Notes under the pieces: model-generated | What the model was told of the DNA's origin: nothing | What the model saw: only the letters and a program-made list of their open reading frames with translations | The model's database searches: none | Shown here: positions 15,609 to 63,693 of the stretch, in pieces | Layout: each line of letters starts with the position of its first letter | Numbering within the stretch: the stretch's first letter is position 1 | Program-made: the position numbers and the translations under genes | Assembly: GCA_022818765.1 (NCBI GenBank) | Contig: CP063810.1 | Coordinates: forward strand, 62,001 to 126,000 | Direction of reading: 5' to 3' | DNA length: 64,000 nt | Source: Bordetella sp. | GTDB taxonomy: Bacteria; Pseudomonadota; Gammaproteobacteria; Burkholderiales; Burkholderiaceae_B

Positions 15609-16396
15609 ATGTATCATCATGAAATACAACAATGTTTTAGTCAAAATTTTTTAATTGATAAAGATTTTATTAATTTGATTCTGTATACTATTTTACCTAA
15701 AAAGAAGATTTATTTTTAGAAATAGGGCCTGGATTAGCTGCGTTAACAGATCCTATGCTTAGGCAAGTTCAACATTTACATGCAATTGAAATTGATCGAA
15801 ATTTAGTTTCTATTTTGCGAAAACGATATTCGATAAAAAAGCTAACAATTTTAGAAGCTGATGCTTTAACTGTTGATTTTTCAAAATTTGGAAAATCAAT
15901 ACGAATTATTGGTAACCTACCTTATCATATTTCCAGTCCTTTGATATTTCATCTTGTTAAATTCATTAAAAATATAAGGGATCAACATTTTATGTTGCAA
16001 CGGGATTTTGTCGATAGAATGGTAGCAAAACATTCAAGTAGTAAATATGGTCGATTATCTGTAATATTACAATCTCAATATAAAATAAAAAAAATATTTG
16101 ATGTACCTCCGGAAGCATTTAATCCAAAACCTAGAGTATTTTCTGCTTTAGTGAAAATGGTTCCATTATCTGATTCTGATTGTTATTCCAAACCAATAAA
16201 TTTTACAGTGTTTGAGAATCTTGTTGCTAAAGCATTTTCAAAACGTAGAAAGATGCTTCGAAATACATTAAAAGATTGGTTGATCCATATTCCTTGGGAG
16301 AAGTTAGAAATATTACCTACTGATCGAGCTCAAGATATTTCCGTCAAAAAATTTATTACTTTGTCAAATATGCTTTTAGATAAAGGAATTGTTTAG
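15609..16396 (+). pseudogene. rsmA: 16S rRNA dimethyladenosine transferase RsmA (KsgA), one -1 frameshift
   Basis: RsmA dimethylates two adenines near the 3' end of 16S rRNA. The ATG at 15609 opens a frame with CFSQNFLIDKDFI that stops at TAG after about 36 codons. The SAM-binding motif LEIGPGLAALTDP and the rest of the enzyme, including the catalytic GNLPYHISSPL, follow in another frame to 16396. The break falls in a run of five A (15699-15703); six would make one 263-codon frame of normal size. Nothing else in the gene is damaged. It may be a sequence error, or the downstream part might be made from an internal start, but that would lack the first SAM motif. Confidence 0.88.
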
Positions 16397-19512: not shown

Positions 19513-19567
19513 TTAAATTCAATTTCAAATTCTATAAATATTTTATAGAATTTGAAATTGAATTTAA
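19513..19567 (-). terminator. 26-bp perfect hairpin at the end of fdhD
   Basis: Arms 19513-19538 and 19542-19567 are fully complementary with a three-base loop. The stop codon of fdhD (19564-19566, minus strand) lies inside the right arm. Only a loosely T-rich stretch follows in the fdhD direction. A terminator or mRNA 3'-end stabiliser is likely. The arm length is exceptional for this window. Confidence 0.7.
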
Positions 19568-20397
19568 AAGCAAATCCGTTCTGGATGTGTATAAATAGAA
19601 GCATTATCTTGCCGAATAAAACCTAATAATCCAATACTTGCTCTCTCTGCTAAACTAACAGCTCTAGCAGTAGGAGCTGATATTGCAGCAAGAATTCCAC
19701 AACCACTGGATATGGTCTTTTGAACCATTTCAAAACTAGCTCTACTTGAAATGAGAATCATTCCTGTATCTGCTTGAAATCCATGGTTTATTAACCCTCC
19801 TATTAATTTATCTAAAGCATTATGTCGTCCTACATCTTCACGCACAAGACATAATTGACCTTCTGAATTAGCCCACCCCGCTGCATGGGTAGCTCCTGTT
19901 GTCTTATAAAGAACTTGGTATTTTCTCATGTTTTTCATTGCTTCTAATATAGCTGCTATCGAAACAACTTTACATGAACTTACTGTTTCAATTGGTGACG
20001 TAATAATTTCTTTTAAAGCATCAATTCCACATAATCCACAACCAGTATTACCTAACATGAATCGACGTCGTTTTCTTAATTTCACTGCACTTGCTGTTGA
20101 AATCTCAAGTTGAATTACAATTCCTTGAGGTTGTTCTTGAAATTCAACATTGCGTATTTCATGTATATTTTTAATAATACCTTCAGTCAAAGAAAAACCT
20201 ACAGCAAAATCTTTAAGATAATTTGGTGAAGCTAACATAGTCACATGATTTATTCCATTATATTCTAATGCAATAGGAGTTTCTTGCGCGACCCAGTCAC
20301 ATTCAGTTTCATTATTTAATTTTCCTGAATGTATTCGATGAATTGAAATATTCATACAATCACTTTTATATAACGCAGTTTGTTTATTTTTATTCAT
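19564..20397 (-). CDS. fdhD: Formate dehydrogenase accessory sulfurtransferase FdhD
   Basis: FdhD moves sulfur from a cysteine desulfurase to the molybdenum cofactor before insertion into formate dehydrogenase. The 277-residue protein carries the sulfur-carrier cysteines in NTGCGLCG (Cys120 and Cys123), the EDVGRHNALDKLIG motif near residue 191 and an SSRASFEMVQK stretch. An in-frame ATG at residue 15 is an alternative start. It heads the Moco island and implies a formate dehydrogenase-like molybdoenzyme elsewhere in the genome, since none lies in the window. Confidence 0.95.
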   Translation of the reverse strand: MNKNKQTALYKSDCMNISIHRIHSGKLNNETECDWVAQETPIALEYNGINHVTMLASPNYLKDFAVGFSLTEGIIKNIHEIRNVEFQEQPQGIVIQLEISTASAVKLRKRRRFMLGNTGCGLCGIDALKEIITSPIETVSSCKVVSIAAILEAMKNMRKYQVLYKTTGATHAAGWANSEGQLCLVREDVGRHNALDKLIGGLINHGFQADTGMILISSRASFEMVQKTISSGCGILAAISAPTARAVSLAERASIGLLGFIRQDNASIYTHPERICF

Positions 20398-20500
20398 AAT
20401 TTTATTGAGAAAATTTAAAGAAATTTTTATTAAAAATTGAAAAACAATTAATCAGAAAAGTAACATTATGTACTTAAAAAATATTTGGAAATAATAAATC

Positions 20501-21619
20501 ATGAATCAATCAATATTTCCTATTAATTTTCCACATTCAAAAAAATTATCTAAATATAAAAGATTAAATGTATCTGTTTTGGATCATTCTGTACTCGATA
20601 AAAAATCTCGTCCTTTAAATTATCTTCGAATTTCAGTTTTAGATCAGTGCAACTTTCGATGCCCTCATTGTATGCCAGATGAAATTTTTCATAAAAATTA
20701 TATTTTCATGAAAAATGAAAATTTATTATCATTTAATGAAATTGCTAGAATAGTAAGAATTTTTTCAAAATTAGGGGTTCAAAAAATTCGGTTAACAGGT
20801 GGAGAACCTTTGCTTAGAAAAAATATTCAAGAATTAATAAAAGTTTTAACTTGTATTCGCACTCCATCTGGAAAACCTCTAGATATAGGTTTAACTACAA
20901 ATGGAAGCTTGTTAGCTCAAAAGGCATTTATTTTAAAAAAGGCAGGTCTCAGAAATATTACTGTTAGCCTTGATGCTCTTGATCCAAAAATTTTCTCTAA
21001 AATGATTGGAAAACAAAAAATAACTCCTCAAACTATTCTGAATGGAATAGAAATCGCTAAAAAAGCAGGTTTAATGCCCATTAAAATAAATATGGTTGTT
21101 CGTCACAGCATTAATAAAACAGAGATTCTTTCAATGGTTAAAAAATTTCGACATACTGGAAATATTCTTCGTTTTATTGAATATATGGATGTTGGAAATA
21201 CTAATAATTGGGATTTAAATGAAGTCATACCTACTCAAGAAATAATCAATTTTATCGAAAAAAAATATCCTTTAATTGCTTTAAATGATTCAAATATGGG
21301 AAGAGTTGCAAAACGTTGGAAATATAAAGATGGTGGTGGAGAAATTGGTTTTATTTCTAGTATCACAGATGCTTTTTGCAGTGGTTGTACACGTGCTCGT
21401 TTATCTCCAGATGGAAAACTATTTACATGTCTTTTTTCATCTAAAGGGTATGATCTTCGTTCAGATCTAAGAAATCAAAATCTTTCAGATGAAGATTTAG
21501 CTAACATATGGAGCAAAATCTGGAAATTGCGTCAGGATAATTACTCTGAGAAAAGAAATGTAATTAGAAATTTTTCTAATCCTGATCAAAAAATTGAAAT
21601 GAGTTATATTGGGGGTTGA
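20501..21619 (+). CDS. moaA: GTP 3',8-cyclase (molybdopterin synthesis) MoaA
   Basis: MoaA is a radical-SAM enzyme that with MoaC turns GTP into cyclic pyranopterin phosphate. The N-terminal 4Fe-4S cluster motif CNFRCPHC has Cys50, Cys54 and Cys57. LTGGEPLLRKN near residue 98 is the SAM motif. The C-terminal cluster cysteines appear in AFCSGCTRARL and FTCLFS, and the protein ends in the functionally important Gly-Gly. A 40-residue leader precedes the core, as in many betaproteobacterial forms. It is divergent from fdhD and followed by mobA. Confidence 0.96.
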   Translation: MNQSIFPINFPHSKKLSKYKRLNVSVLDHSVLDKKSRPLNYLRISVLDQCNFRCPHCMPDEIFHKNYIFMKNENLLSFNEIARIVRIFSKLGVQKIRLTGGEPLLRKNIQELIKVLTCIRTPSGKPLDIGLTTNGSLLAQKAFILKKAGLRNITVSLDALDPKIFSKMIGKQKITPQTILNGIEIAKKAGLMPIKINMVVRHSINKTEILSMVKKFRHTGNILRFIEYMDVGNTNNWDLNEVIPTQEIINFIEKKYPLIALNDSNMGRVAKRWKYKDGGGEIGFISSITDAFCSGCTRARLSPDGKLFTCLFSSKGYDLRSDLRNQNLSDEDLANIWSKIWKLRQDNYSEKRNVIRNFSNPDQKIEMSYIGG

Positions 21620-21651
21620 TAAACAACAATTTATTAGTAACCTACTTATTA

Positions 21652-22278
21652 ATGAAAATAGCTGGTTTAATACTCGCTGGAGGTTCCAGCATCAGGATGG
21701 GAGGCATTGACAAAGGTCTACTATTATTGGATGGTAAACCTTTAGTTGAACATGTTTTTAACCAGATAAATTTACATATTTCAAAGCTTTTCATTAGTGC
21801 AAATCGAAATTCAGAAAAATATTCTATATATGGATCAGTTCTACATGACAATAAGAACTTGGGATCTTTTTTGGGTCCTTTAGGAGGGATTGCTGCAGCT
21901 ATGTCTGTATGGACAGGACAACTACTAGTCATAATGCCTTGTGATTCTCCATTTTTTTATAGCTGTCTTATAAAACGTTTGATTTTAACTGCAGAAAAAG
22001 AAAATGCATCTTTAGTAGTTGCAAGTTGCAATAAAAAACGTCAACCTGTTTTTATGGTAGCAAATATAAAACTTCTATCAAATTTAGAAACTTATTTAAT
22101 TAGAAAAAACCGGAAAGTTCGATTGTGGCAAGATATGGTTGGAGTAAGAGAAGTAGATTGTTCGGATTTTCCAACAGCTTTTTTAAATATAAATACTTTT
22201 AATGATTTCAATCAAAGTAAAGCAATTATAAGGTCCAATGTTGTAAATCATAGTAATCTACCAAATCGTGATCATTAA
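21652..22278 (+). CDS. mobA: Molybdenum cofactor guanylyltransferase MobA
   Basis: MobA adds GMP to Mo-molybdopterin, producing the dinucleotide cofactor used by DMSO-reductase-type enzymes such as formate dehydrogenase and nitrate reductase. The nucleotide-binding LILAGGSSIRMGGIDKGLL is at the N-terminus, and MPCDSPFF near residue 100 holds the metal-site aspartate. I placed the start at 21652 because it gives MKIAGLILAGG; a TTG further upstream at 21616 would overlap moaA. The last 53 bases overlap the end of moeA on the other strand. Confidence 0.93.
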   Translation: MKIAGLILAGGSSIRMGGIDKGLLLLDGKPLVEHVFNQINLHISKLFISANRNSEKYSIYGSVLHDNKNLGSFLGPLGGIAAAMSVWTGQLLVIMPCDSPFFYSCLIKRLILTAEKENASLVVASCNKKRQPVFMVANIKLLSNLETYLIRKNRKVRLWQDMVGVREVDCSDFPTAFLNINTFNDFNQSKAIIRSNVVNHSNLPNRDH

Positions 22279-23431
22279 TTTTAGTATTAGCAGGCAAGCG
22301 AGCAAAGCCATTAGCCCATGCAATAGAACTTATAAAAGACGAATCTTGTTTAGGATAACAAATCAATTCCGAAAATCCATTGGAAATTACACGTTTAACT
22401 CTAAGAAAATTTTCTCTAGAATCTATAAATTCTTTATGAATGCGTAATGGAAGTTTGATAATAGGAGGAAATAAATTGTTCCGTCCTTGCATTCCTCGGA
22501 TTAGTAAGGTCCCAATTGTAATAAATGTTACATAAGCAGAAACTGGATTTCCTGGTAAGCATAATACTGGCGTATTTTTTACATTTATTAATGCTATAGG
22601 TTTTCCTGGTTTCATTTTTATTTTCCAAAATTCTATTTTTCCTCCTAATGATTGAAGAACTTTTTTTATAAGATCTTTTTCTCCAACAGAAATTCCCCCA
22701 ACACTAATGATTACATCACAATTGATCAATAATTTTTTAAAAGCTTGAGATAAATCATCTTCATTATCGGAGGTATGTAATACATCAATTACATTTGAAC
22801 CAATCATTTTAGACAAAGCTTCTAACATAGGACTATTTGAATTATAAATTTCTTGCTCAAGACATTTTTGTCCTGGATTAATTAATTCATTACCACTTGT
22901 CAAAATTCCAACTTTGAGGCTTTTATAAACAGAAACATTAGAAATGCCTTGTGAAGCAAGAAATGCTATATCAGAAGCATTTAATTTAGTTCCTATTTTC
23001 GAAATAATACTTCCTTTTTTGATATCTTCTCCTTGTCTTCTTATATTCTCACCAAATTTAGTTGGCTGAATTATGTTGATCCAATTATTTTCTTGATATA
23101 CATTTTCTTGAATAACTATGGTATCAGCTCCATCAGGAAGTAAACTACCTGTAAAGAGTTTAATTGCATACCCAGGAAGAAGATTTCCTATTGTATCACC
23201 TGCATAACAAGATTTTTGAATAGGAATTTTTTCATTGAATAAATCAATATGACGAATCGCATATCCATCCATAGCACTGTTATCTTTCAACGGAAAGTCC
23301 ATCATTGCATTTAAATCAGATGCTAAAATTTTGCCTAATGATTTATTCAATGAAATTTTTTCAATAGGTGGTTTAGGTAACGAAATTACCATTTTCGCAA
23401 TAAAGTCTTGGGCTTGTTCAAACTCTAACAT
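22226..23431 (-). CDS. moeA: Molybdopterin molybdenumtransferase MoeA
   Basis: MoeA inserts molybdate into adenylylated molybdopterin. The 401-residue protein shows DFPLKDNSAMDGYAIR near residue 42, the GEDIKKGSIISKIGTKL region, the MoCF-fold motif ISVGGISVGEKDLIKK and the PGKPIALINVKNTPVLCLPG loop. It is the last gene of the minus-strand moaC-moaD-moaE-moaB-moeA cluster and lies 9 bases after moaB. Its 3' end overlaps mobA by 53 bases in convergent fashion. Confidence 0.95.
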   Translation of the reverse strand: MLEFEQAQDFIAKMVISLPKPPIEKISLNKSLGKILASDLNAMMDFPLKDNSAMDGYAIRHIDLFNEKIPIQKSCYAGDTIGNLLPGYAIKLFTGSLLPDGADTIVIQENVYQENNWINIIQPTKFGENIRRQGEDIKKGSIISKIGTKLNASDIAFLASQGISNVSVYKSLKVGILTSGNELINPGQKCLEQEIYNSNSPMLEALSKMIGSNVIDVLHTSDNEDDLSQAFKKLLINCDVIISVGGISVGEKDLIKKVLQSLGGKIEFWKIKMKPGKPIALINVKNTPVLCLPGNPVSAYVTFITIGTLLIRGMQGRNNLFPPIIKLPLRIHKEFIDSRENFLRVKRVISNGFSELICYPKQDSSFISSIAWANGFARLPANTKINDHDLVDYYDLQHWTL

Positions 23432-23440
23432 AAATTGAAT

Positions 23441-23980
23441 TTAATCTTTGTTTTTAAATCGATATGAAAAATTACAAGGTAAGTAACTACTATCAAGTTG
23501 TTCACATAACAACTTAGACCAAGCAGTATGACAAGCATTGCTTGAGCTAGGTAAACAAAATATCAAAGTATTGTTAGCATAACCTGCAAAAGCTCTTGAT
23601 TGAACTGTAGAACTTCCAATTTCTTTATAGGAAATTTGTCGAAATAATTCTCCGAATCCTTCTATTATCTCATCCAATAATGGTAGAACTGACTGATATG
23701 TATCATCGTTGAAATGATAACCTGTCCCACCTATAGTTAATATAACTTGAATTGTCGAATCTGCAATCCAATTGCTCAATATACGGCGAATTTGATATTT
23801 ATTGCTTTTAATCAGACATCGATATATACATTTATGACCAGCTTCTATCAAATTATTTTCTAATAAATTCCCTGAAGTATCCTCATTTGAGGAGTGATCA
23901 TTGATAGTAAGTATTGAACAGGAAAGAGATATAAATTCTGAATGCACTATAAAGAGGTCCTTATGAAGTATATTTTTCAT
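23441..23980 (-). CDS. moaB: Molybdenum cofactor protein MoaB (MogA/MoaB family)
   Basis: The protein of 179 residues has the MoCF-binding fold with the molybdopterin-binding TIGGTGYHFNDDT motif near residue 92 and a PSSSNACHTAWSKLL stretch near the end. MoaB/Mog proteins adenylylate molybdopterin. The E. coli MoaB appears dispensable, and a separate mog gene lies at 42.8 kb, so its exact job is uncertain. The sequence is more diverged than its neighbours (NDHSSNEDTSG in place of a tighter SDR motif). The start overlaps the end of moaE by 20 bases. Confidence 0.85.
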   Translation of the reverse strand: MKNILHKDLFIVHSEFISLSCSILTINDHSSNEDTSGNLLENNLIEAGHKCIYRCLIKSNKYQIRRILSNWIADSTIQVILTIGGTGYHFNDDTYQSVLPLLDEIIEGFGELFRQISYKEIGSSTVQSRAFAGYANNTLIFCLPSSSNACHTAWSKLLCEQLDSSYLPCNFSYRFKNKD

Positions 23981-24428
23981 TCCAAAGTTGACGTTTTGTA
24001 TAATCTTTACTGGTTGGACTTACCCAGAATTTACTTCCCTCTGCTAGGGTTTCGCATTTCCAAATTGGAATACATGTTTTAATCATATCCAATATATATT
24101 CGCAGCTCAAGAATGCTTCTTTTCGATGAATACTAGCAGTAGATACAAAAACGATTCTATTTCCAGGATATAAAATTCCAACTCTATGAACAATCACTAC
24201 ATCTAATAATTTCCAATTTTGATAAGCATTATTAACAATAATATTCAGTTCACGTTCACACATATTTGGATAATGTTCAAGGAATAACTTTTGAATTTCA
24301 GCATCATTTCTATAGTCTCGAACATACCCTGTAAATGATACAATTGCACCTGCTTTTTCTCCTACTTTTTTTTTCAAATTCTCTTGTAGTAAGTTAGGAT
24401 TAAAGTCCTCTTCTTGAATAGAAATCAC
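23961..24428 (-). CDS. moaE: Molybdopterin synthase catalytic subunit MoaE
   Basis: MoaE, with the sulfur carrier MoaD, converts cPMP to molybdopterin. The 155-residue product has AGAIVSFTGYVRDYRND, the HRVGILYPGNRIVFV segment and the catalytic lysine region IWKCETLAEGSKFW. I set the start at the GTG at 24428, reading VISIQEEDFNP, because a GGAGGG lies about 8 bases upstream and the core begins there. Longer forms would run through moaD. It is four bases behind moaD. Confidence 0.93.
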   Translation of the reverse strand: MISIQEEDFNPNLLQENLKKKVGEKAGAIVSFTGYVRDYRNDAEIQKLFLEHYPNMCERELNIIVNNAYQNWKLLDVVIVHRVGILYPGNRIVFVSTASIHRKEAFLSCEYILDMIKTCIPIWKCETLAEGSKFWVSPTSKDYTKRQLWNEKYTS

Positions 24429-24432
24429 ATTT

Positions 24433-24690
24433 CTACCCTCCTGTAACAGGTTCAAAAATAGCAACTTCATCACCATTTTGAATACAAACAGATTTATTCG
24501 CATATATCTGATTAACAGCTAAATATAATCTGGGAATGGAATTTAATTGTGGGTAAAATTGACGTAAAATTTTCAAAAGATCATTCCCTGTAATCAAGTT
24601 TTCTATTGGCCAAGATTCAGATCGTTTGCCTGTCAACTCAGCAATTCTTGCAAAATATAAAATATTAACTCTCGCAAGACCAATTACCAC
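24433..24690 (-). CDS. moaD: Molybdopterin synthase sulfur carrier subunit MoaD
   Basis: This ubiquitin-like protein of 85 residues carries a thiocarboxylate on its C-terminal glycine. The chain ends PVTGG, and NILYFARIAELTGK and GDEVAIFEPVTGG fit the family. The start at 24690 overlaps the end of moaC by 26 bases and gives a short leader of about seven residues. It is directly followed by moaE, its partner. Confidence 0.94.
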   Translation of the reverse strand: MVIGLARVNILYFARIAELTGKRSESWPIENLITGNDLLKILRQFYPQLNSIPRLYLAVNQIYANKSVCIQNGDEVAIFEPVTGG

Positions 24691-25156
24691 TTTTTCCTCC
24701 TATTTTTTTAATTAGTCGGATATCTTCTATAATTATTGCTTTATCTTCTGATTTGCACATATCATATATTGTCAATGCAGCTATGCTGCATGCCATCATA
24801 GCCTCCATTTCAACTCCTGTTTTATAATTTGTCTCGCATTGGGATATAACTTCTATACTGTGCATTTCATTATTTAATTGAAATTTAATATCAATAAAAT
24901 TAATAGGTAGACTGTGACAAAGCGGGATTAAATCTGAGCAGCGTTTAGCTGCTTGGATAGCAGCTATGCGAGCAGTATTCAATACCTCTCCTTTATTATT
25001 CTTTTCAGGATGAGTTAATAATTCATAAGCTTCGGAACTCATATTTATTCGGCTTTTAGCTACTGCAATACGGTGCGTAGCATCCTTTGATGTAATATTA
25101 ACGATCTGAACTTGACCATCTTGATTAAGATGACTAAATTTCTTTGGTAGAAACAT
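24665..25156 (-). CDS. moaC: Cyclic pyranopterin monophosphate synthase MoaC
   Basis: MoaC completes the first step of Moco synthesis after MoaA. The 163-residue protein includes KGEVLNTARIAAIQAAKR, the LIPLCHSLPI active-site stretch, TGVEMEAMMACSIAALTIYD and the KSGNW end region. It is the first gene of the minus-strand cluster moaC-moaD-moaE-moaB-moeA, in which neighbours overlap or nearly touch, so a single transcript is likely. Confidence 0.96.
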   Translation of the reverse strand: MFLPKKFSHLNQDGQVQIVNITSKDATHRIAVAKSRINMSSEAYELLTHPEKNNKGEVLNTARIAAIQAAKRCSDLIPLCHSLPINFIDIKFQLNNEMHSIEVISQCETNYKTGVEMEAMMACSIAALTIYDMCKSEDKAIIIEDIRLIKKIGGKSGNWSCES

Positions 25157-25556: not shown

Positions 25557-26450
25557 TTAGAGTTCTTTAATATTTAAAACCATTGTTAGAATCGCTATTA
25601 TTCCTAATAGTAAGCCAATAATATTTAAACGAATTATTGGTTCATCAAAAATTAATATTCCTATTAAAATTCCAATCACTACTACACTTATATTCATAGT
25701 GATAAATATAAAAATAGGATGATCAGGCAAGCATTGGTGTGAAAGTATATAAGTTATGATATTAGTAAAATTAAGTAAACCAATCGAAAATCCAATCAGC
25801 AAATGTATCCATTTCCAATATACTTGACATATTATTGTATATATAAAAGTTATAATTCCAGATAAAACAAAAGAAATCAATAAACTTTGAAAAAGAATTT
25901 CAATTGAAAATTGTGAGAGTAATTTAAAAAGAATATCAATTATTCCATAACCTAAAAAAACCAAAAAAGGCCATATCCAAATAGAAAATCTATATCGTGT
26001 TCTTTGAAGTTTATCTATATTGAATTGGTATAATAAACACCATAGAGAAATTATGGAAAAGAAAATGGAAAAGATTCCAAGTATTGAAATTTTTGTATCA
26101 AATATTATAAAAGCAGCCGATAATGAAACAAATATTGATAATCTTTGAGCAAGATCACTTCGTATAATTCCGGTATACTTTAATGATTGCCCCATAGATA
26201 AAAAAACTATTGGGAATAAAACACCTAATGCTAGTAATATTAACCATGGCATTCTAAAATTTACTGGAAATCCAAAATCTGGATATAAAAATACCCAACA
26301 AAATATAGAAGCAAATAAGTAATTTAAGAAAATAATTGGTCTAGAATCAATATTATCATTTTTGTAAACTGCTTTCAAAATTACAGAAACTGAAATATTT
26401 GAAATTATGCTGATAGCCAAATATATAATTCCCATTATTAACGATGTCAT
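25557..26450 (-). CDS. DMT-family (EamA-like) transporter
   Basis: A very hydrophobic protein of 297 residues with about ten membrane helices, in two halves of five, consistent with the drug/metabolite transporter superfamily. The N-terminal half includes GQSLKYTGIIRSDLAQRLS and the end has FDEPIIRLNIIGLLLGIIA, a common DMT ending. It is much more AT-rich (Ile- and Phe-laden) than the RhtA-like transporter 7 kb upstream, and the two are not close copies. The substrate is unknown. Confidence 0.65.
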   Translation of the reverse strand: MTSLIMGIIYLAISIISNISVSVILKAVYKNDNIDSRPIIFLNYLFASIFCWVFLYPDFGFPVNFRMPWLILLALGVLFPIVFLSMGQSLKYTGIIRSDLAQRLSIFVSLSAAFIIFDTKISILGIFSIFFSIISLWCLLYQFNIDKLQRTRYRFSIWIWPFLVFLGYGIIDILFKLLSQFSIEILFQSLLISFVLSGIITFIYTIICQVYWKWIHLLIGFSIGLLNFTNIITYILSHQCLPDHPIFIFITMNISVVVIGILIGILIFDEPIIRLNIIGLLLGIIAILTMVLNIKEL

Positions 26451-33853: not shown

Positions 33854-34991
<1,138 letters not shown>

Positions 34992-34995
<4 letters not shown>

Positions 34996-36053
34996 ATATT
35001 ATTTGCTTCAATGAACATCGCATCTCCATAACTAAAGAATTGGTATTGATTTTTAATAGCATGCTCATAAGCTTTCTGTATTGAAATAACACCAGCTAAA
35101 GCTGAAACTAACATAATCAAAGTAGATTTAGGGAAATGAAAATTTGTAATTAAAGCATCTACAATCTTATACTTATATCCAGGAGTTATAAATATATCTG
35201 TACTACCAGTAATTGGAGATAATAAATCTGTTCGATCACTATTGTTAAGTACTGCATAATGAGCTGAAGATTCAAGCGCTCTAACAGTAGTGGTTCCAAC
35301 AGCAATAACACGTTTTCCCAAAGATTTAGCTCTGGAAACAGCATCTACTGTTTTTTGTGTTACAGAATAAAATTCTTTATGCATAATGTGATTTTTCGGA
35401 TTTTCTGATCGGATTGGTGAAAAAGTTCCTGAACCAACATGTAATGTAACAAATTCTATTTTTATACCAAAATTTTTTAGTTTATTTAACATTTGTTTAG
35501 TAAAGTGCAAACCTGCCGTAGGTGCAGCTATTGCTCCTACTTCTTTCGCATATACTGTTTGATAACGATCTTTATCTTTTAAATTTGGAGTTCTCTTAAT
35601 GTAAGGGGGTAATGGTGTTACTCCATGAGTTTCTAATAAATCTAATACTGGTTCTGGAAAATTTAAATAAAGTAATTGATTACTTATTTTTACAACAACA
35701 ATATCAAAAGAATCATTTATTCGAAATATAGTTCCTGGTTTTGAAGGAGTGTTGGATTTTACATAAGCAGTTGCACAATATTTTCCGATAATTTGTTCAA
35801 CTAAAATTTTTACATTTCCTCCTGTTTTTTTTCTCCCATTTAATCTAGCGTTAATAACACGAGTGTCATTAAAAATTAATACATCGTCGTAATGTAAAAG
35901 ATTAATTAAATCAGAAAAATGTAAGTCCGATAATTTTCCTTGATTATCCAGATGCAAGAGTTTGCTATTACCACGTTTTTTGGATGGAAATTGTGCAATT
36001 AATTTAGATGGTAGAAAATAATCAAAATCAGAAAGAGACAGAACCTTAGACAT
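34992..36053 (-). CDS. queA: S-adenosylmethionine:tRNA ribosyltransferase-isomerase
   Basis: QueA builds epoxyqueuosine from preQ1-tRNA using the ribosyl part of SAM. The 353-residue protein is full length, with [16 protein letters not shown] near the start, the [14 protein letters not shown] motif near residue 178 and [18 protein letters not shown] near the end. The stop codon overlaps the tgt ATG. Only the later queuosine genes are seen here; no preQ1 synthesis genes lie in the window. Confidence 0.95.
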
Positions 36054-36231: not shown

Positions 36232-37778
36232 CTAAATATCAAGTGCATGCCATATACTGTCTATTCGTTTTTTAACTGAAATATCCATTTCAATTCGAGA
36301 TCCCCAAATTCTATTAGTTTCATTAGACCATTTATTTGTAGCGTCCATGCCCAATTTGCTGCCTAATCCTGAAGTTGGAGAAGCAAAATCTAAATAGTCA
36401 ATTGGTGTATTTTCTATTAGAACAATATCTCTAGAAGGATCCATCCTAGTTGTCATTGCCCATATTACTTCTTTCCAATCTCTTGGATCGATATCATCAT
36501 CGACCACAATAATAAATTTTGTATACATAAATTGTCGCAAAATGCTCCATATACCAAACATGATTCTCTTTGCATGTCCTGGATATTGTTTTTTGATTGA
36601 GACTGTTGCTAGTCGGTAACTACACCCTTCGGGTGGAAGATAAAAATCAACTATTTCAGGTAATGTTTTCTGGAGTAAAGGAATAAATACTTCATTTAAT
36701 GATAAACCTAAGATTGATGGTTCATCTGGGGGTTTTCCAGTGTAAGTCGAATGATATATGGTATTTGAACGCATTGTAATTCGATCAACTGTAAAAACAG
36801 GGAACCATTCTTTTTCATTATAATATCCAGTATGATCACCATAAGGACCTTCTAAAGCCATCTCGTAATTTATTTTTAAAGATTCTTGAAGTTTAGGAGA
36901 ACAATCTGTATTGAGAGTAATAGCTTTCGAATCTGAAATTGGAAGTATATTACCTTCAAGAATTATCTCTGCATAAGCAGGTACTAATAAAGAATTTCCA
37001 ATAGATTTTACCAATTCCGTTCTAGATCCTCGCAATAAACTGCAAATTGGTATTCAGATAAATTATCTGGAATTGGAGTAACAGCACTAAGTGTAGTTGC
37101 TGGATCTACTCCTAAAGCAACAGAAATTGGAAAAGGTTGATTAGGGTATGCTTGAATATGTTTTTGAAAATCTAATGCTCCCCCGATGTGGTAGCCATCG
37201 CATAATAAGTTTATTTTATCTATTGGTTGCTGTCGATAAATTCCTAAATTTTGACGAATTTTATCTGGAGATTTTGTAATTACTAAACCCCAACTAAGTA
37301 AAGGTCCTACATCTTTCGGCCAACAAGTTTGAAGAGGTAATTTAGATAAATCTACTTTTTCGTTCTCTAATACAAATTCCTGACAAACTCCTTTTCGCAA
37401 GATTTTAGGTCGCATATCCCAGAGTGCTAGTTTTAAGCTAGATATTGTTTCAAAAATATCTGAAATATTTTGTGGAGGTTCAGGTTCTTTTAGTAAAGCT
37501 AAAAGCTTACCAGTTTCTCTTAAATCTTTTATACTTTCGCCACCCATTCCAAATGCTACTCTTTTTGAGGTGCCAAAAAGATTTGTTAACACAGGGATTT
37601 CAGAAACTTTACCATTGTGTATCACTTTTTCAAATAATAAAGCCGGTCCACCTGAGCGTAAAACCCGATCTGAAATTTCAGTTAATTCTAAGTAAGAAGA
37701 AACAGGAAATTTAATGCGCTTGAGTTCTTTTTTATCTTCAAGTTGAGTAATAAAATCTCTTAAATCCCGATATTTCAC
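36232..37778 (-). pseudogene. ubiD: 3-octaprenyl-4-hydroxybenzoate decarboxylase UbiD, one -1 frameshift
   Basis: UbiD decarboxylates the polyprenyl-hydroxybenzoate intermediate of ubiquinone using prenylated FMN made by UbiX. The N-terminal half runs from 37778 through SEYQFA and then shifts. One extra G at 37040 (minus strand GG instead of G) would give [14 protein letters not shown] and join it to the second half, making a 516-codon gene. The second half keeps [11 protein letters not shown] and [15 protein letters not shown]. No other damage is seen. It may be an assembly error; as it stands no full-length protein is encoded. Confidence 0.9.
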
Positions 37779-38415
37779 TTAAATTCACTATTTTCTAAAA
37801 TTAGTTTATTTGGAAAAGTTTTCAATTTCTCATAATTCTTTTGAAAAGTACATAAGTAAGACAATATTATAATTGTTAATAAATTCTTATAGAAAGTCTA
37901 AAAGCTAACTAATTTACAAAATAATTAATAAAAATCAAATTTTATATGAGGATATAGGGTATACAAATTTTTTTGAAAAAATTAAAAGTCTTTTAATTTT
38001 AAGAAACGTTATGAAACTTTATGAAATAAATAATTTAACTGTGTCCCATAATATTTTACAAGATATATAACAAGTTTAGATATATGAAAAATCAAGTCAA
38101 GATAATAATGCATACATATCATTAATTTTTAATCGAAAATGAAAAATTAATATTTTTAATACTTAACATATTGAATTTTATTAAAGTAAAAATCATTGCA
38201 AAAATTATATTTGAATCTTTCATATAGCTAGATCACGTGTATATAAAGAATAATTTTGAACTTTCATTCCATCCATCTAACGAAAAAATTCAAAATGAAC
38301 TGATTTATATGAATATAATATTTATAAATTTTTAATTTTTTAAAAAATGTTAACATCAACCATTTTCTAGCATATTAGAATATAAAATTTTGGAAAAGTA
38401 TAGGTTAAACTTAAA
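37779..38415. other. 637-base non-coding gap before tktA
   Basis: The longest gene-free stretch in the window. I see no open frame with protein-like sequence, no tRNA and no repeat family. A ten-base inverted repeat at 38121-38151 is the only structure of note. The ubiD and tktA promoters must lie here, since both genes point away from it. It may be the residue of lost genes, too eroded to name. Confidence 0.45.
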
Positions 38416-40468
38416 ATGGAAAAACAAAACATCCACAACACTATTGCAGATACTATTCGTATTCTTACTATGGACGCTGTGGAAAAAGCTAATTCTGGAC
38501 ATCCTGGAGCTCCTATGGGTATGGCAGAAATTGCGACAGCTCTTTGGATGAAAAATTTGCGTCACAATCCAGCTGATCCTAAATGGATAGATCGTGATCG
38601 ATTTGTTTTATCAAATGGCCATAGTTCAATGTTGCTTTATGCGTTATTACATCTAACTGGCTATGACCTTTCGATATCCCAGTTAAAAAACTTTCGGCAA
38701 TTAGGTTCATTGACTCCAGGTCATCCAGAATTTGGGCTCACCCCAGGTATAGAAGCCACTACAGGCCCATTAGGGCAAGGATTGGGTAATGCTGTAGGAA
38801 TGGCTCTATCCGAATCCTTGTTGTCATCAGAATTTAATAGACCTGGATATGATATTGTAAATCATTTTACATATGTATTTGTTGGTGATGGTTGTCTCAT
38901 GGAAGGCATATCGCATGAAGTGTGTTCATTAGCAGGTACTTTAAAATTATCTAAATTGATAGTTTTATATGATAGTAATGGAATTTCTATTGATGGAAAT
39001 GTTAAGTTTTGGTTTAATGATGATACATCAAAACGTTTTGAGGCTTATGGATGGAATGTAATTGATAAAATCGATGGACATAATATTACAGAAATTGATT
39101 TAGCTATTAAAAAAGCTAAATATCAATCTGATAAACCTACTATTATTATTTGTCAAACAGTTATTGGAAAAGGTTCGCCGAATAAAGCTGGTACTGCTGA
39201 TATACACGGATCACCGTTAGGATTAGAAGAAACAAGACTTGCCAAGAAATATTTAAACTGGACAAATGATCCTTTTGTTATACCAGAATCTACATATAAA
39301 ATGTGTAATTCAATTGAATTTGGCAATTCCATTCAAACTACATGGGAAAAACAATTCCATTCTTATTCTCTTGTGTATCCTAAACTTGCCAAAGAATTTA
39401 AGCGTCGAATTAAAGGTCATTTACCAACTAATTTTTCTGATTTTTTTCAAAATTTATTAAAAGTCACAACAAAAAAAAATGAAGATCTATCAACTAGAAA
39501 AGCCTCACAATTTGTCATTACCAGTTTAGAAAAGATTTTACCAGAACTTCTTGGTGGATCAGCTGATTTAACTCGATCAAATTTGACAGATTGGAAAGGG
39601 GTTGAAATAGTTAATAAAAATGATAAAGGCACAATTTCTGGAAGGTATATTAACTATGGAGTTCGTGAATTTGGTATGGCAGCTATCATGAATGGAATTG
39701 CATTGCATGGAGGTTATCTGCCTTTTTCTGGAACGTTTTTAACTTTTTCTGACTATTCGCGTAATGCTATTCGCATGTCAGCTTTGATGAAGCAAAGAGT
39801 TATTTACGTGTTTACTCACGATTCTATTGGTCTTGGTGAAGATGGCCCTACGCATCAACCTATAGAACAAATTGCTAGTTTACGTTTGATACCTAACTTA
39901 TCAGTATGGCGTCCATGTGACATTGTTGAAACTGTAACAGCCTGGTGTGTTGGTATACAACGTCCAATAAATATGGAAATAAACCAGAAAATTTGGGAGG
40001 ACCAACTGCTATTTTGCTATCAAGACAAAACTTACCATTTATAGATCGGGATAATCAAACATTACAGTCTGCAAAACGCGGTGGTTATATATTAAAGGAT
40101 ATGCAAGATGCAAAAATCGTGATCTTAGCTACTGGTTCAGAAGTTTCTATTGCGTTAAATGCTCAAGAAAAATTGATTAATGAGGGGATTCCAGTTAGGG
40201 TAGTTTCAATGCCTTGTGTTGATATTTTTGAGAAACAAGATATCGATTGGAAAGATTTTGTTCTGCCAAAGGACATGTTCAAAATTGCCATTGAAGCAGG
40301 TTCGATAGATTTTTGTATAAATATGTAGGTTTAGAAGGCGCTATTATTGGTATTGATAATCGTTATGGGGAATCAGCTCCAGCCGATGTATTATTTGATT
40401 ATTTCCAGATCACTGCCAATAAATTAATTAAAACTGTAAAAAATTTTATAAATAGGAAAAAGTTATGA
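38416..40468 (+). pseudogene. tktA: Transketolase, two -1 frameshifts
   Basis: Transketolase moves two-carbon units between sugar phosphates using thiamine diphosphate. The cofactor motif [18 protein letters not shown] is intact near residue 155, as is the pyrimidine-domain segment [16 protein letters not shown]. The frame breaks near 39966 (AA where AAA gives QRPNKYG) and again at 40315 (one G where two give FWYKYVGLEG). Two added bases make one 685-codon gene of normal length. Its restored stop overlaps the gapA ATG (ATGA), which suggests the frame was functional until very recently or still is. Confidence 0.9.
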
Positions 40469-42735: not shown

Positions 42736-42811
42736 AAAATGTCTCTGTGTTTAATCGAATAATAATTTTTAAAGAAATATAAACATTAACAAAAGTTTTT
42801 ATCGTCATAAA

Positions 42812-43425
42812 ATGAAGCATATGATTTCTAAAACAGAATATTTTCATGAGGATTCCAGTTTATTAATTGGTTTAGTCTCGATATCGGATCGAGCATATTC
42901 TGGTCAATATGAAGACCGGGGTTACCTACATTGCGAAATTGGTTAGATCAAGCAATATTATCATCCAAAAAATATTATGAATTTTTGATTCCTGATGAGA
43001 TTGAGCTTATAGCTAAATGTTTAGTGGATTTATCAGATAATTATGCCTGCGATCTAATTTTTACAATAGGTGGAACCGGTCCAACTAATAGAGATGTAAC
43101 ACCTGAAGCTACACTATCGATAGCAAGCAAAGAATTGCCAGGTATTGCTGAACAAATGCGTCAAATAAGTTTGAAAGCTACACCTACAGCTGTTCTTTCT
43201 CGTCAGGTTTCGGTTATACGGCAAAACGATAAACATTCAGCTCTAATTATAAATTTACCAGGACAGCCTAGAGCTGTACAAGAGATATTAGAAGGAGTCA
43301 AAGATTTTAAGGGAAATACTATTATTTCAGGAATTTTTTCAGCTATTCCATACTGTCTTGATTTGATAGGAGGACCTTATATTGAAACTAATCCGAAAAT
43401 CATTAAAAGTTTTCGTCCAAAATAA
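42812..43425 (+). pseudogene. mog: Molybdopterin adenylyltransferase (Mog), one -1 frameshift
   Basis: Mog adenylylates molybdopterin ahead of MoeA. The start reads LLIGLVSISDRAYSGQYED and then leaves frame at a run of four G (42918-42921). Five would give EDRGLPTLRNWL and a 205-codon gene. The second part keeps the binding motif TIGGTGPTNRDVTPEAT and the NLPGQPRAVQEILEG stretch. It is closer to classic Mog than MoaB at 23.4 kb is. If the break is real, MoaB would be the only candidate for this step in the window. Confidence 0.88.
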
Positions 43426-43458: not shown

Positions 43459-44101
43459 TTAAATTTTTCTGAATAAGAATTTATTTTCAAATTCGCATAA
43501 ACTAAAAATTTTGCAAAGATCACATCTTGGTTTATTAGCTTTGCATATATAACGACCTAGCAGAACTAGCCAATGATGAGCGTTATAAGCATATTCAGAT
43601 GGAACTCTTTTCAACAAATTTTTTTCTACTTCTTGTACAGTTTTCCCTTTAGCAATTTTTGTTCGATTTGAAACTCGGAAAACATGAGTATCAACTGCCA
43701 TAGTTTTTTGACCAAATATAATATTTAATATTACATTTGCACTCTTTCTTCCTATTCCTGGAAGGTTTCCAATTCGTATCGTGTTTCTGGAATATTTCCG
43801 TCATGTTTTTGCAATATAATTTCACAAATTTTATTATATTACTAGCCTTTGTTCTATAAAGACCTATGGTTTTAATATATTTAATTAAATGATCTTCACC
43901 TAAATCCAATAAGGTTTCTGGTGTTCCATAATTTATAAAAAGTTTTCTTGTAACAATATTAACAATTTTATCCTTTGATTGAGCTGATAGTAAAACAGCA
44001 ATTAATAATTGAAAAGGAGTTTGATATTCTAAATCAGATTTAGGATTGGGATTTTCTTCTCTTAAAATAAAAAATATTTTTTTTCTTTTATATAGATTCA
44101 T
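43459..44101 (-). pseudogene. nth: Endonuclease III, two -1 frameshifts
   Basis: Nth removes oxidised pyrimidines from DNA. The N-terminal part (YQTPFQLLIAVLLSAQSKD) is followed by two frame changes. One is at 43826-43828 (three T in the sense strand where four read KFCEIILQ). The other is near 43762-43765, just before the helix-hairpin-helix PGIGRKSANVI. The third frame has the catalytic aspartate in AVDTHVFRVSNR and the iron-sulfur cysteines CDLCKIFSLC. Two added bases give a 215-codon gene of standard size. It is convergent with mog. Confidence 0.87.
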
Positions 44102-44156
44102 AATGTAATTTAAGTTTCTCTCTTTCGTCGCATTCTTACGCGAAAAAGCACGTTAT

Positions 44157-52477: not shown

Positions 52478-53067
52478 TTAAAAGATTGGATTAAATCCGA
52501 GACATCGTAACATTCTTGCAACACTAATAAGAGGTAAACCAATAATTGCTGTTGGATCTTGACTTTTAATGCTTTCAAACAAAGTTATTCCTAAACTTTC
52601 TACTTTAACACTACCTGCAGTATCATAAGGCTTTTCTAAATCAAGATATGATACAATTTCTCTATCAGTTAAATCCCTCAATTTACAGTTTGTAGTGATA
52701 TTTTTTCTTTTAATTTTTTTTCCATTAGCGATTGTAACAGCGGTGTGAAAAATAATATATTTTCCTGATAAAGTTTTTAACTGTTCTTTAGCATGAAAAA
52801 AATTTTTGGGTTTTCCTATGATTTCCTTGCTAATTCGAGCAATCTGATCTGATCCAATTACTATTGTTTCTGGGTATTTTTTTGAAACAAATAGAGCTTT
52901 TTCAGAGGCTAGACGCATAGCATATTGTTTCGGATTTTCTCCAATATTAGGTGATTCATCTATATTTGGATAAACTACTTTGAAAGGTATTTTAATCGTT
53001 CTAGCAAGTGACGACGATATATCGAACTAGAAGCTAAAATAAGTTTTTTATTTCTATGTAAGGTCAT
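52478..53067 (-). pseudogene. maf: Maf-like nucleoside triphosphate pyrophosphatase, one -1 frameshift
   Basis: Maf proteins hydrolyse non-standard or methylated nucleoside triphosphates. The start reads LILASSSIYRRHLLERL, the family N-terminus, then shifts at a run of four T (52990-52993, AAAA in the sense strand). Five would read LKIPFKVVYPNIDESP and yield a 197-codon gene. The later part keeps IGSDQIARI and the KPYDTAGSVKVES segment. This family is often dispensable, so a real loss is possible, but the lesion type matches the others in the window. Confidence 0.87.
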
Positions 53068-53484
53068 TTTTTAAAGAAATTAATAGTGAAAAATTTTTTA
53101 AATTTATTTTTATAAAATCAGAAATATAATTCTAAATTATCTATAAATGCCAAATTCATTTTTTTAGAAAAATAAAGATTAAATAAATCATTCTTTTGAA
53201 ACTATAAGAAATTTGATAAAATTCAAAATTTTGATCTTATTTAACATTATTTATCAAATAACTTGTGTTGCATATAAAAAAATTATTATTATCTGACTGC
53301 TCTATTTTTTATCAGGTTTGGAAAATGTAATCATTTACATATATATTCAATCTTTAATTCGTTAATGTTTAATTACAAATTAATTCTTTTTAAGAATTTC
53401 ATTGCATTTTGAAACTCTTTTCTAATTATTTTTAGCAAAATTGAAATTAAATTTTTTAGAGATTAATTTCAGGAGTTATTATTT
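53068..53484. other. Gap before rpmF where yceD is expected
   Basis: In related genomes yceD (DUF177) lies directly upstream of rpmF, divergent from maf. Here 417 bases hold no open frame that I can match to it. It should contain the promoter of the rpmF-plsX-fab operon. No hairpin or repeat stands out. Confidence 0.45.
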
Positions 53485-58006: not shown

Positions 58007-58036
58007 ATTTCTTTTCAAACGAGAAGGAGGTGCTTC

Positions 58037-59274
58037 GTGAAGCGACGTGTGGCTATTACGGGATTGGGAATTATTTCCCCAGTTGGAAATGATTTAAATA
58101 CTGCTTGGATTAATATAATTAATGGTCAGTCTGGTATAAACCGAATCACTCGATTTGATTCTTCAGTATTAATACTCATATAGCTGGTGAGGTTAAGAAT
58201 TTTAATGTTTATGATTATGTGTCTGTTAAAGAAGCTCGTCAGATGGATAATTTTATCCATTATGGTATAGCTGCAGGTAAACAAGCATGGAATGATTGTG
58301 GACATGAAATTACTGAAGAAAATGCTACACGAGTTGGCATTATTATCGGTTCAGGAATAGGAGGTCTTTCTCGCATAGAACAAACACAGATTGAGGTTCA
58401 ATCTAAAGGGATTCATCGAATTTCACCTTTTTTTGTACCGAGTTCTTTAATAAATTTAATTTCTGGGCGTTTGTCAATTGCTCTTGGTGTGAAAGGCCCT
58501 ACCTATGCGGTAGTGTCTGCATGTGCAACTGGTCTTGATTCTATAGGTAATGCGACTCGTTTAATAGAATATGGGGATGCTGATGTAATGTTAGCTGGTG
58601 GTTCTGAATCTGCAGTTTCTCCATTAGGAGTTGGTGGGTTTGCTGCGATGAAGGCTTTATCTACTCGCAATGAAGATCCTGAAACAGCTTCTCGTCCTTG
58701 GGATCGAGATCGTGATGGTTTTGTTTTGGGTGAAGGTGCAGGAGTATTAGTTTTGGAAGAATTAGAACATGCGAAAAAACGCGGAGCTCGGATTTATGGA
58801 GAAATCATTGGTTATGGTATGAGCTCTGATTCGAATCATATTACTGCTCCTGATAAAGATGGTCCTTATCGAAGTATTTTTAATGCTCTTCGTAATGCAA
58901 ATATAAATCCAAGTGACATTGATTATGTTAATGCACATGGAACATCAACTGTGCTTGGAGATAAAAATGAAACAGAATCAATTAAATTGGCATTTAAAGA
59001 TCATGCATATAAATTAGTAATAAATTCTACTAAATCAATGACAGGTCATTTATTGGGAGCTTCTGGAGGTATTGAAGCTGTATTCACAGCTTTAGCAATT
59101 TACAATCAAATTTCTCCTCCAACTATTAATATTTTTAATCAAGATCCTGAATGTGATCTTGATTATTGTGCAAATGAAGCAAGATCAATGAAAATTCAAA
59201 TAGGTATTTCAAATTCTTTTGGTTTTGGTGGTACAAATGGATCAATTATTATGCGACGTGCAAATAACATCTAA
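58037..59274 (+). pseudogene. fabF: Beta-ketoacyl-ACP synthase II, one -1 frameshift
   Basis: FabF elongates acyl-ACP chains. A strong AAGGAGG lies just ahead of the GTG start at 58037, and the sequence reads [19 protein letters not shown]. It leaves frame near 58169 (two T where three would give [12 protein letters not shown]) and continues in another frame with Cys in SACATG and histidines in NAHGTST and TGHLLGAS. One added base makes a 413-codon gene of normal size. With the rest of the fab operon intact and no second fabF in view, a sequence error is the likely reason. Confidence 0.9.
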
Positions 59275-62849: not shown

Positions 62850-62875
62850 TTATAATAATTTAAGGAAATAAATTA

Positions 62876-63693
62876 ATGAGTTGGGACTTTAATTTTATTT
62901 TATGTATTTGCACAATTCTCTTAGGCTTTACTTGGATTTTTCATCGATTAATAATCGTCAAACTTAATATATCTTTAAATGCAAATTTTTTAAGTAGAAT
63001 ATTAAATTCTCCATGGCTTGAATATTTAGCAAATACATTTCCAATTTTATTATCTGTATTTATCTTTCGTTCATTTATAATTGAACCATTTCGAATTCCT
63101 TCTGGTTCTATGTTACCTACTTTACAATCTGGTGATTTTATCCTTGTTAATAAATTTATTTATGGAATAAGAAATCCTATTAATGATAAACAAATTTTTC
63201 ATACAAAACAGATTAATAGAGGTGATGTAATAGTATTTCGTTACCCTGTTAACCCACATGTTAATTATGTAAAGCGAGTAATTGGTTTACCTGGAGAAGA
63301 AATAATTTATAAAACAAATAAACAATTATTTGTTAATAATATTTTAATTTCTAATGATTTCAAGGGAATGTACTATGAAAAAGATAGAGAATCATTCATT
63401 ACAAAATATCTGGAGAAATTAGAAAATATTAAGCATGAAATTTTATTAGATAAAAATAATGAATCTAAGATATATCCAATTTATCAATTCCCCAGCATAG
63501 AAAATTGTCATTACTCTCATGAAAGTTTATATTGCAAAATACCAAAGAATCATTATTTTACTATGGGAGATAATCGTGATAATAGTTCTGATAGTCGATA
63601 TTGGGGTTTGTTCCTGATGAAAATATAGTTGGAAAAGCTTTTTTTATATGGATGAATTTTAAAAATATTAATCGGATAGGTTTATTATATTGA
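62876..63693 (+). pseudogene. lepB: Signal peptidase I, one -1 frameshift near the end
   Basis: LepB removes signal peptides at the outer face of the inner membrane. The membrane anchors come first. The catalytic Ser78 lies in IPSGSMLPTL and Lys133 in NYVKRVIGLPG; the GDNRDNSSDSRYWG box is intact. Right after it three T (63607-63609) replace the four that would read GFVPDENIVGKAFFIWMNF, and the chain ends eleven codons early in frame terms, with 23 restored residues lost. One added base makes a 273-codon gene ending two bases before rnc. The truncated form still holds both catalytic residues, so partial function is conceivable. Confidence 0.9.

Follow-up and report, generated by a model that had tools for sequence, protein, structure and literature searches.

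A molybdenum-cofactor gene island in an 866-kb Bordetella-related genome likely serves a selenocysteine formate dehydrogenase

Introduction

Why would a small, AT-rich chromosome keep eight contiguous genes devoted to a single cofactor? Such a set lies in the 64,000-nucleotide stretch analysed here (the window; C1:62001-126000 of the 866,396-bp contig C1). The original prediction described the chromosome as reduced and AT-rich, which agrees with the assembly: the genome (G000) is a single contig of 866,396 bp, estimated to be 93.5% complete, with a GC content of 0.30 in the window and of 0.29-0.34 in the island genes, whereas relatives bearing selA have genomes of 1.6-7.4 Mb.

Results

The molybdenum-cofactor island and its missing partners

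All eight island genes that had been proposed for the molybdenum cofactor (Moco) were recovered with NCBIfam models, and their overlaps are real. One assignment has to be changed, since FdhD acts as a sulfurtransferase on formate dehydrogenase and is no part of Moco biosynthesis. The pathway genes are the following, in window coordinates except for moeB.

19564..20397, minus strand: fdhD, sulfurtransferase needed for formate dehydrogenase (TIGR00129, 229 bits, cut-off 140.9; CGLC motif)
20501..21619, plus strand: moaA, GTP 3',8-cyclase (TIGR02666, 343 bits, cut-off 284)
21616..22278, plus strand: mobA, Mo cofactor guanylyltransferase (TIGR02665, 182.9 bits, cut-off 151.9)
22226..23431, minus strand: moeA, molybdopterin molybdotransferase (NF007960, 321.6 bits; molyb_syn domain 93.8, cut-off 85.4)
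23441..23980, minus strand: moaB, MoaB/Mog-family protein (TIGR02667, 207 bits, cut-off 222)
23961..24503, minus strand: moaE, molybdopterin synthase large subunit (NF007959, 122.9 bits)
24433..24690, minus strand: moaD, molybdopterin synthase small subunit (TIGR01682, 60 bits, cut-off 66; VTGG end)
24665..25156, minus strand: moaC, cyclic pyranopterin monophosphate synthase (NF006870, 200.5 bits, cut-off 162)
42931..43425, plus strand: mogA, molybdopterin adenylyltransferase (NF006932, 230.8 bits, cut-off 158; profile 28-187/193)
C1:735855-736571: moeB (passes the curated threshold of NF004281, the model for the MoeB subfamily)

Because the genes lie on both strands (moaA-mobA on plus; fdhD and moeA-moaB-moaE-moaD-moaC on minus), the island is a cluster rather than one operon. 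Overlaps amount to 4 bp for moaA/mobA, 53 bp for the convergent mobA/moeA pair, 20 bp for moaB/moaE and 26 bp for moaC/moaD. That of moaE/moaD varies with the start chosen; the moaE start likely lies within 24470-24503, and for mobA the in-frame ATG at 21652 is more likely than 21616. MoaA has both Fe-S cysteine motifs intact (CxxxCxxC and CxxC-x13-C) and a C-terminal GG. MoeA, MoaB, MoaE and MoaD score under some equivalog cut-offs, yet they are full length with intact motifs.

Two members of the Moco pathway, mogA and moeB, are located outside the island. The N-terminus of MogA is encoded in another frame (about 42773-42943), and this upstream frame ends in ...SISDRAYSGQYEDRG. A genome-wide search for moeB and modABC had been suggested together with the original prediction. 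It yielded moeB, and synthesis from GTP to bis-MGD (moaA, moaC, moaD, moaE, moeB, mogA, moeA, mobA) is complete on paper, as judged from the predicted genes. None of the genome's ABC ATPases that were read is of the ModC type, nor was a SulP permease found; G000 has the whole Moco pathway and no recognised molybdate importer.

A formate dehydrogenase locus beyond the window

In our genome, the PF00384 family (DMSO-reductase superfamily; MsrP and xanthine-oxidase-type molybdoenzymes fall outside its reach) has two members only: NuoG at C1:254595 (TIGR01973, 620 bits) and a formate dehydrogenase alpha subunit, matched at C1:140369-141817 with one internal TGA. The genome therefore does contain a molybdoenzyme, a selenocysteine (Sec) formate dehydrogenase, and the idea that MobA and FdhD point to such an enzyme is borne out by a full FdoGHI-type locus with FdhE. 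This locus (L003) occupies C1:131902-142141 on the minus strand, about 6-16 kb right of the window's edge, in the order fdoG(Sec)-fdoH-fdoI-fdhE-selA-selB-tRNA-Sec-selD.

C1:139077-142141, minus strand: fdoG, alpha subunit (TIGR01553 pieces 2-194, 201-663 and 636-1009 of 1009; the UGA falls between the first and second piece)
C1:138167-139093, minus strand: fdoH, beta subunit (TIGR01582, 454 bits, cut-off 334.7)
C1:137611-138222, minus strand: fdoI, gamma subunit (TIGR01583, 177 bits, cut-off 115.9)
C1:136566-137534, minus strand: fdhE (225 bits, cut-off 187.7)
C1:135123-136538, minus strand: selA (561 bits, cut-off 267.9)
C1:133169-135112, minus strand: selB (398 bits, cut-off 242.3)
C1:132989-133087, minus strand: tRNA-Sec, selC (67.5 bits, gathering threshold 47)
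C1:131902-132945, minus strand: selD (465 bits, cut-off 299)

The FdoG N-terminus carries a twin-arginine leader (INRRQFFK), and TatC was found in the genome. All 16 of the 16 cysteines of FdoH are kept, as are the four aligned histidines of FdoI.

Selenocysteine decoding has stayed under selection

The Sec-decoding set selA, selB, selC and selD is thus complete, and the in-frame UGA is codon 198 of fdoG (context ...NQARV-U-HAPTVAG...), the position of the active-site selenocysteine in FdnG/FdoG. The SECIS stretch directly after the UGA, GGTGGCAGGTCTTGCC, is identical in relatives. Its codons match those of Bordetella at 12/12 positions, as compared to 22% of conserved degenerate residues over the whole of fdoG; if sites are independent, the chance of such a match is about 1e-8. 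Its GC content (26/39) is reached by 3 of the 1007 windows of fdoG. The minimum free energy of folding is no better than that of shuffles (z = 0.22), so that the SECIS claim rests on conservation. As for tRNA-Sec, 11 distinct sequences were compared: 99.7% of cells are paired and 10 pairs show double changes, a level reached by 0/500 shuffles. Several of the double changes in the tRNA-Sec of G000 are from G-C to A-U, and one D-stem pair is broken. Together, the unchanged SECIS codons and the compensatory changes in tRNA-Sec indicate that Sec decoding stayed under selection. SelU was not found in the genome search, so that no known role of SelD beyond Sec decoding came to light. The original prediction was right about the enzyme and missed the selenocysteine system, which lies beyond the window and is the most unusual component of the whole.

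Within the family, selA is present in 131 of 269 genomes, and G000 (0.87 Mb) is by far the smallest of these, the next listed having 1.6 Mb at 83% completeness. No SelB above the cut-off was found in G007, a member of the family with 0.8 Mb. The locus offers a natural test of Sec-decoding retention: the SECIS stayed as it was, in contrast to the majority of the other synonymous sites in fdoG.

Frameshifts in the assembly

The assembled fdoG is shifted near C1:140204 (ccaccaGGGaggct), where it has one base fewer than its relatives, and fdoI near C1:137617 (aaGGGGtag), where the homologous tail goes on in the next frame; each shift is of one base, at a G run. The mogA and tatC genes are likewise frameshifted in the assembly. 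Because the fdoG and fdoI frames are broken, FdoG activity, as predicted from its sequence, is likely rather than shown. With 4 of about 19 pathway genes frameshifted in the sole assembly, the system could be a relic in decay: real deletions of one base would recently have disabled fdoG, fdoI, mogA and tatC, and those Moco and Sec genes that are still intact would await loss. However, single frameshifts are as frequent in the background, and besides mogA they split a number of core genes of the window (window coordinates).

396-1849: glcD
15701-16393: ksgA
33857-34998: tgt
36235-37778: ubiD
38404-40325: tkt
42773-43422: mogA
43462-44152: nth
52481-53070: maf
58007-59271: fabF
62864-63690: lepB

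Both halves of these split genes are conserved and several shifts occur at G runs; those of ksgA and of the lepB tail were called from frame layout only, as were shifts in a pgm-like gene, cydD and rpoH. By hand count, frameshifts affect about 10 of about 51 other genes in the window, fabF, lepB, tkt and tgt among them, as against 4/19 in the pathway (Fisher p = 1.0, run with 53 others). As a cell can normally dispense with neither fabF nor lepB, consensus error is the probable origin of most of the shifts. In addition, the part of FdoG ahead of the shift shares 0.757 identity with Bordetella and the part beyond it 0.719; with its SECIS codons unchanged and its tRNA-Sec helices compensated, the system cannot have been dead for long. 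Overall, recent decay appears unlikely. A global under-calling of G runs was considered as the cause of the frameshifts and rejected, five-base G/C runs numbering 19 observed versus 17-28 expected.

Relatives of the locus

The closest relatives of FdoG are found in Bordetella and Achromobacter, and the order fdoGHI-fdhE-selA-selB-tRNA-Sec-selD is common to Bordetella genomosp. 12 (L026) and two Alcaligenaceae isolates (L028, L041). In the fdoG gene tree, our sequence is unresolved among betaproteobacteria; its exact sister is not fixed because it forms a long branch with odd composition. Horizontal gain of the locus is disfavoured, as order and content match Alcaligenaceae, and vertical inheritance is the simplest reading. 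Compared with the Sec formate dehydrogenase locus of Bordetella, Achromobacter and other Alcaligenaceae, content and order are the same, FdoG is about 74% identical and the SECIS codons are identical. In contrast to these multi-megabase relatives, the genome here has 866 kb and 30% GC, with AT-rich genes and assembly frameshifts. The enzyme also resembles E. coli FdnGHI/FdoGHI in its alpha (Sec), beta (16 Cys) and gamma (haem b) subunits, its Tat leader and its FdhD/FdhE helpers. Unlike in E. coli, the sel genes directly follow fdhE on its 3' side, and pyruvate formate-lyase and FocA were not found.

According to Zhang et al. 2006 (PMC1794560), selA-selB-selC adjoins fdhA in alphaproteobacteria and in Sec-using betaproteobacteria, and fdhA is their sole selenoprotein gene; in the present case selD is also clustered and the genome is strongly reduced. 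The host-restricted Serratia symbiotica SCt-VLC has a gene for formate dehydrogenase-O whose status is unclear, and has lost tRNA-Sec (PMC4122931), whereas G000 keeps the whole Sec set. For two species of Oligella and an Alcaligenaceae MAG (L069 from 10001, L097 from 9172, L105 from 8266), tblastn gave no fdoH or fdoI match between fdoG and fdhE, and the formate dehydrogenase partners may differ.

Discussion

From the gene content, the island is likely to supply bis-MGD to one membrane-bound, periplasm-facing Sec formate dehydrogenase of the FdoGHI type. On the sequence evidence, MoaA, MoaC, MoaD, MoaE, MoeB, MogA, MoeA and MobA build the cofactor, FdhD and FdhE act as formate dehydrogenase-specific helpers, and SelA, SelB, tRNA-Sec and SelD insert selenocysteine at the fdoG UGA; FdoG bears a twin-arginine leader and TatC is encoded in the genome. 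Formate from the surroundings (the host or the cell's own biosynthesis) would get to the periplasm and be oxidised to CO2 by FdoG. Quinone would then receive the electrons by way of FdoH, with its four Fe-S clusters, and FdoI, with its two haems, and oxidation of the quinol via the cytochrome bd or aa3 branch would raise the proton motive force. The locus itself would have come down by vertical descent from an ancestor of Alcaligenaceae type and have survived genome shrinkage. It is very improbable that the Moco pathway mainly serves a molybdoenzyme of some superfamily other than that of DMSO reductase (e.g. MsrP/YedY or a xanthine-oxidase type), with formate dehydrogenase secondary, as MobA, FdhD, FdhE and selABCD, which fit a bis-MGD formate dehydrogenase, are all kept in the genome.

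Enzymes of the FDH-N/O type are oriented towards the periplasm and pass electrons to quinone. The respiratory genes of G000 include cytochrome aa3 (CtaD, 722 bits), cytochrome bd (CydA, CydB) and complex I (NuoG), and their presence, with that of MoeB and TatC, makes periplasmic formate oxidation feeding aerobic respiration the likely pathway. From the enzyme type, the oxidases and complex I, a role of the formate dehydrogenase in energy supply is predicted as likely. Searches of the genome for pyruvate formate-lyase and FocA were negative. Without pyruvate formate-lyase, the sources of formate must be the surroundings or side reactions of biosynthesis. Outside formate would need no inner-membrane importer to reach a periplasm-facing enzyme, which fits the absence of FocA.

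Taken together, the Moco, formate dehydrogenase and Sec genes number about twenty and take up some 17 kb, or 2% of the genome. About twenty genes and two trace elements thus appear to be spent on one enzyme, and formate dehydrogenase is likely to be important to the cell. The enzyme system is of a well-known kind; its retention in so small a genome is unusual. The bacterium may be a symbiont, and the molybdoenzyme may, as originally suggested, benefit a host. More tentatively, a host-restricted bacterium of <0.9 Mb might live partly on host-supplied formate, this single donor having kept the Moco and Sec machinery through genome erosion; although we hold this picture to be somewhat doubtful, the genome may then be among the smallest that decode Sec. 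If the system is expressed, formate would rank as an important electron donor for a bacterium whose genome has shrunk, and one could test for its transfer from host to symbiont.

Beside the Moco cluster, at window positions 25557-26450, lies a membrane protein gene with a weak EamA match (20.9 bits, under the cut-off). To the left of the window, two neighbouring minus-strand frames (L005:502-2549; C1:50502-52549) look by eye like a split membrane sensor with a serine-phosphatase-like C-terminal part, and adjoin a probable ABC substrate-binding gene.
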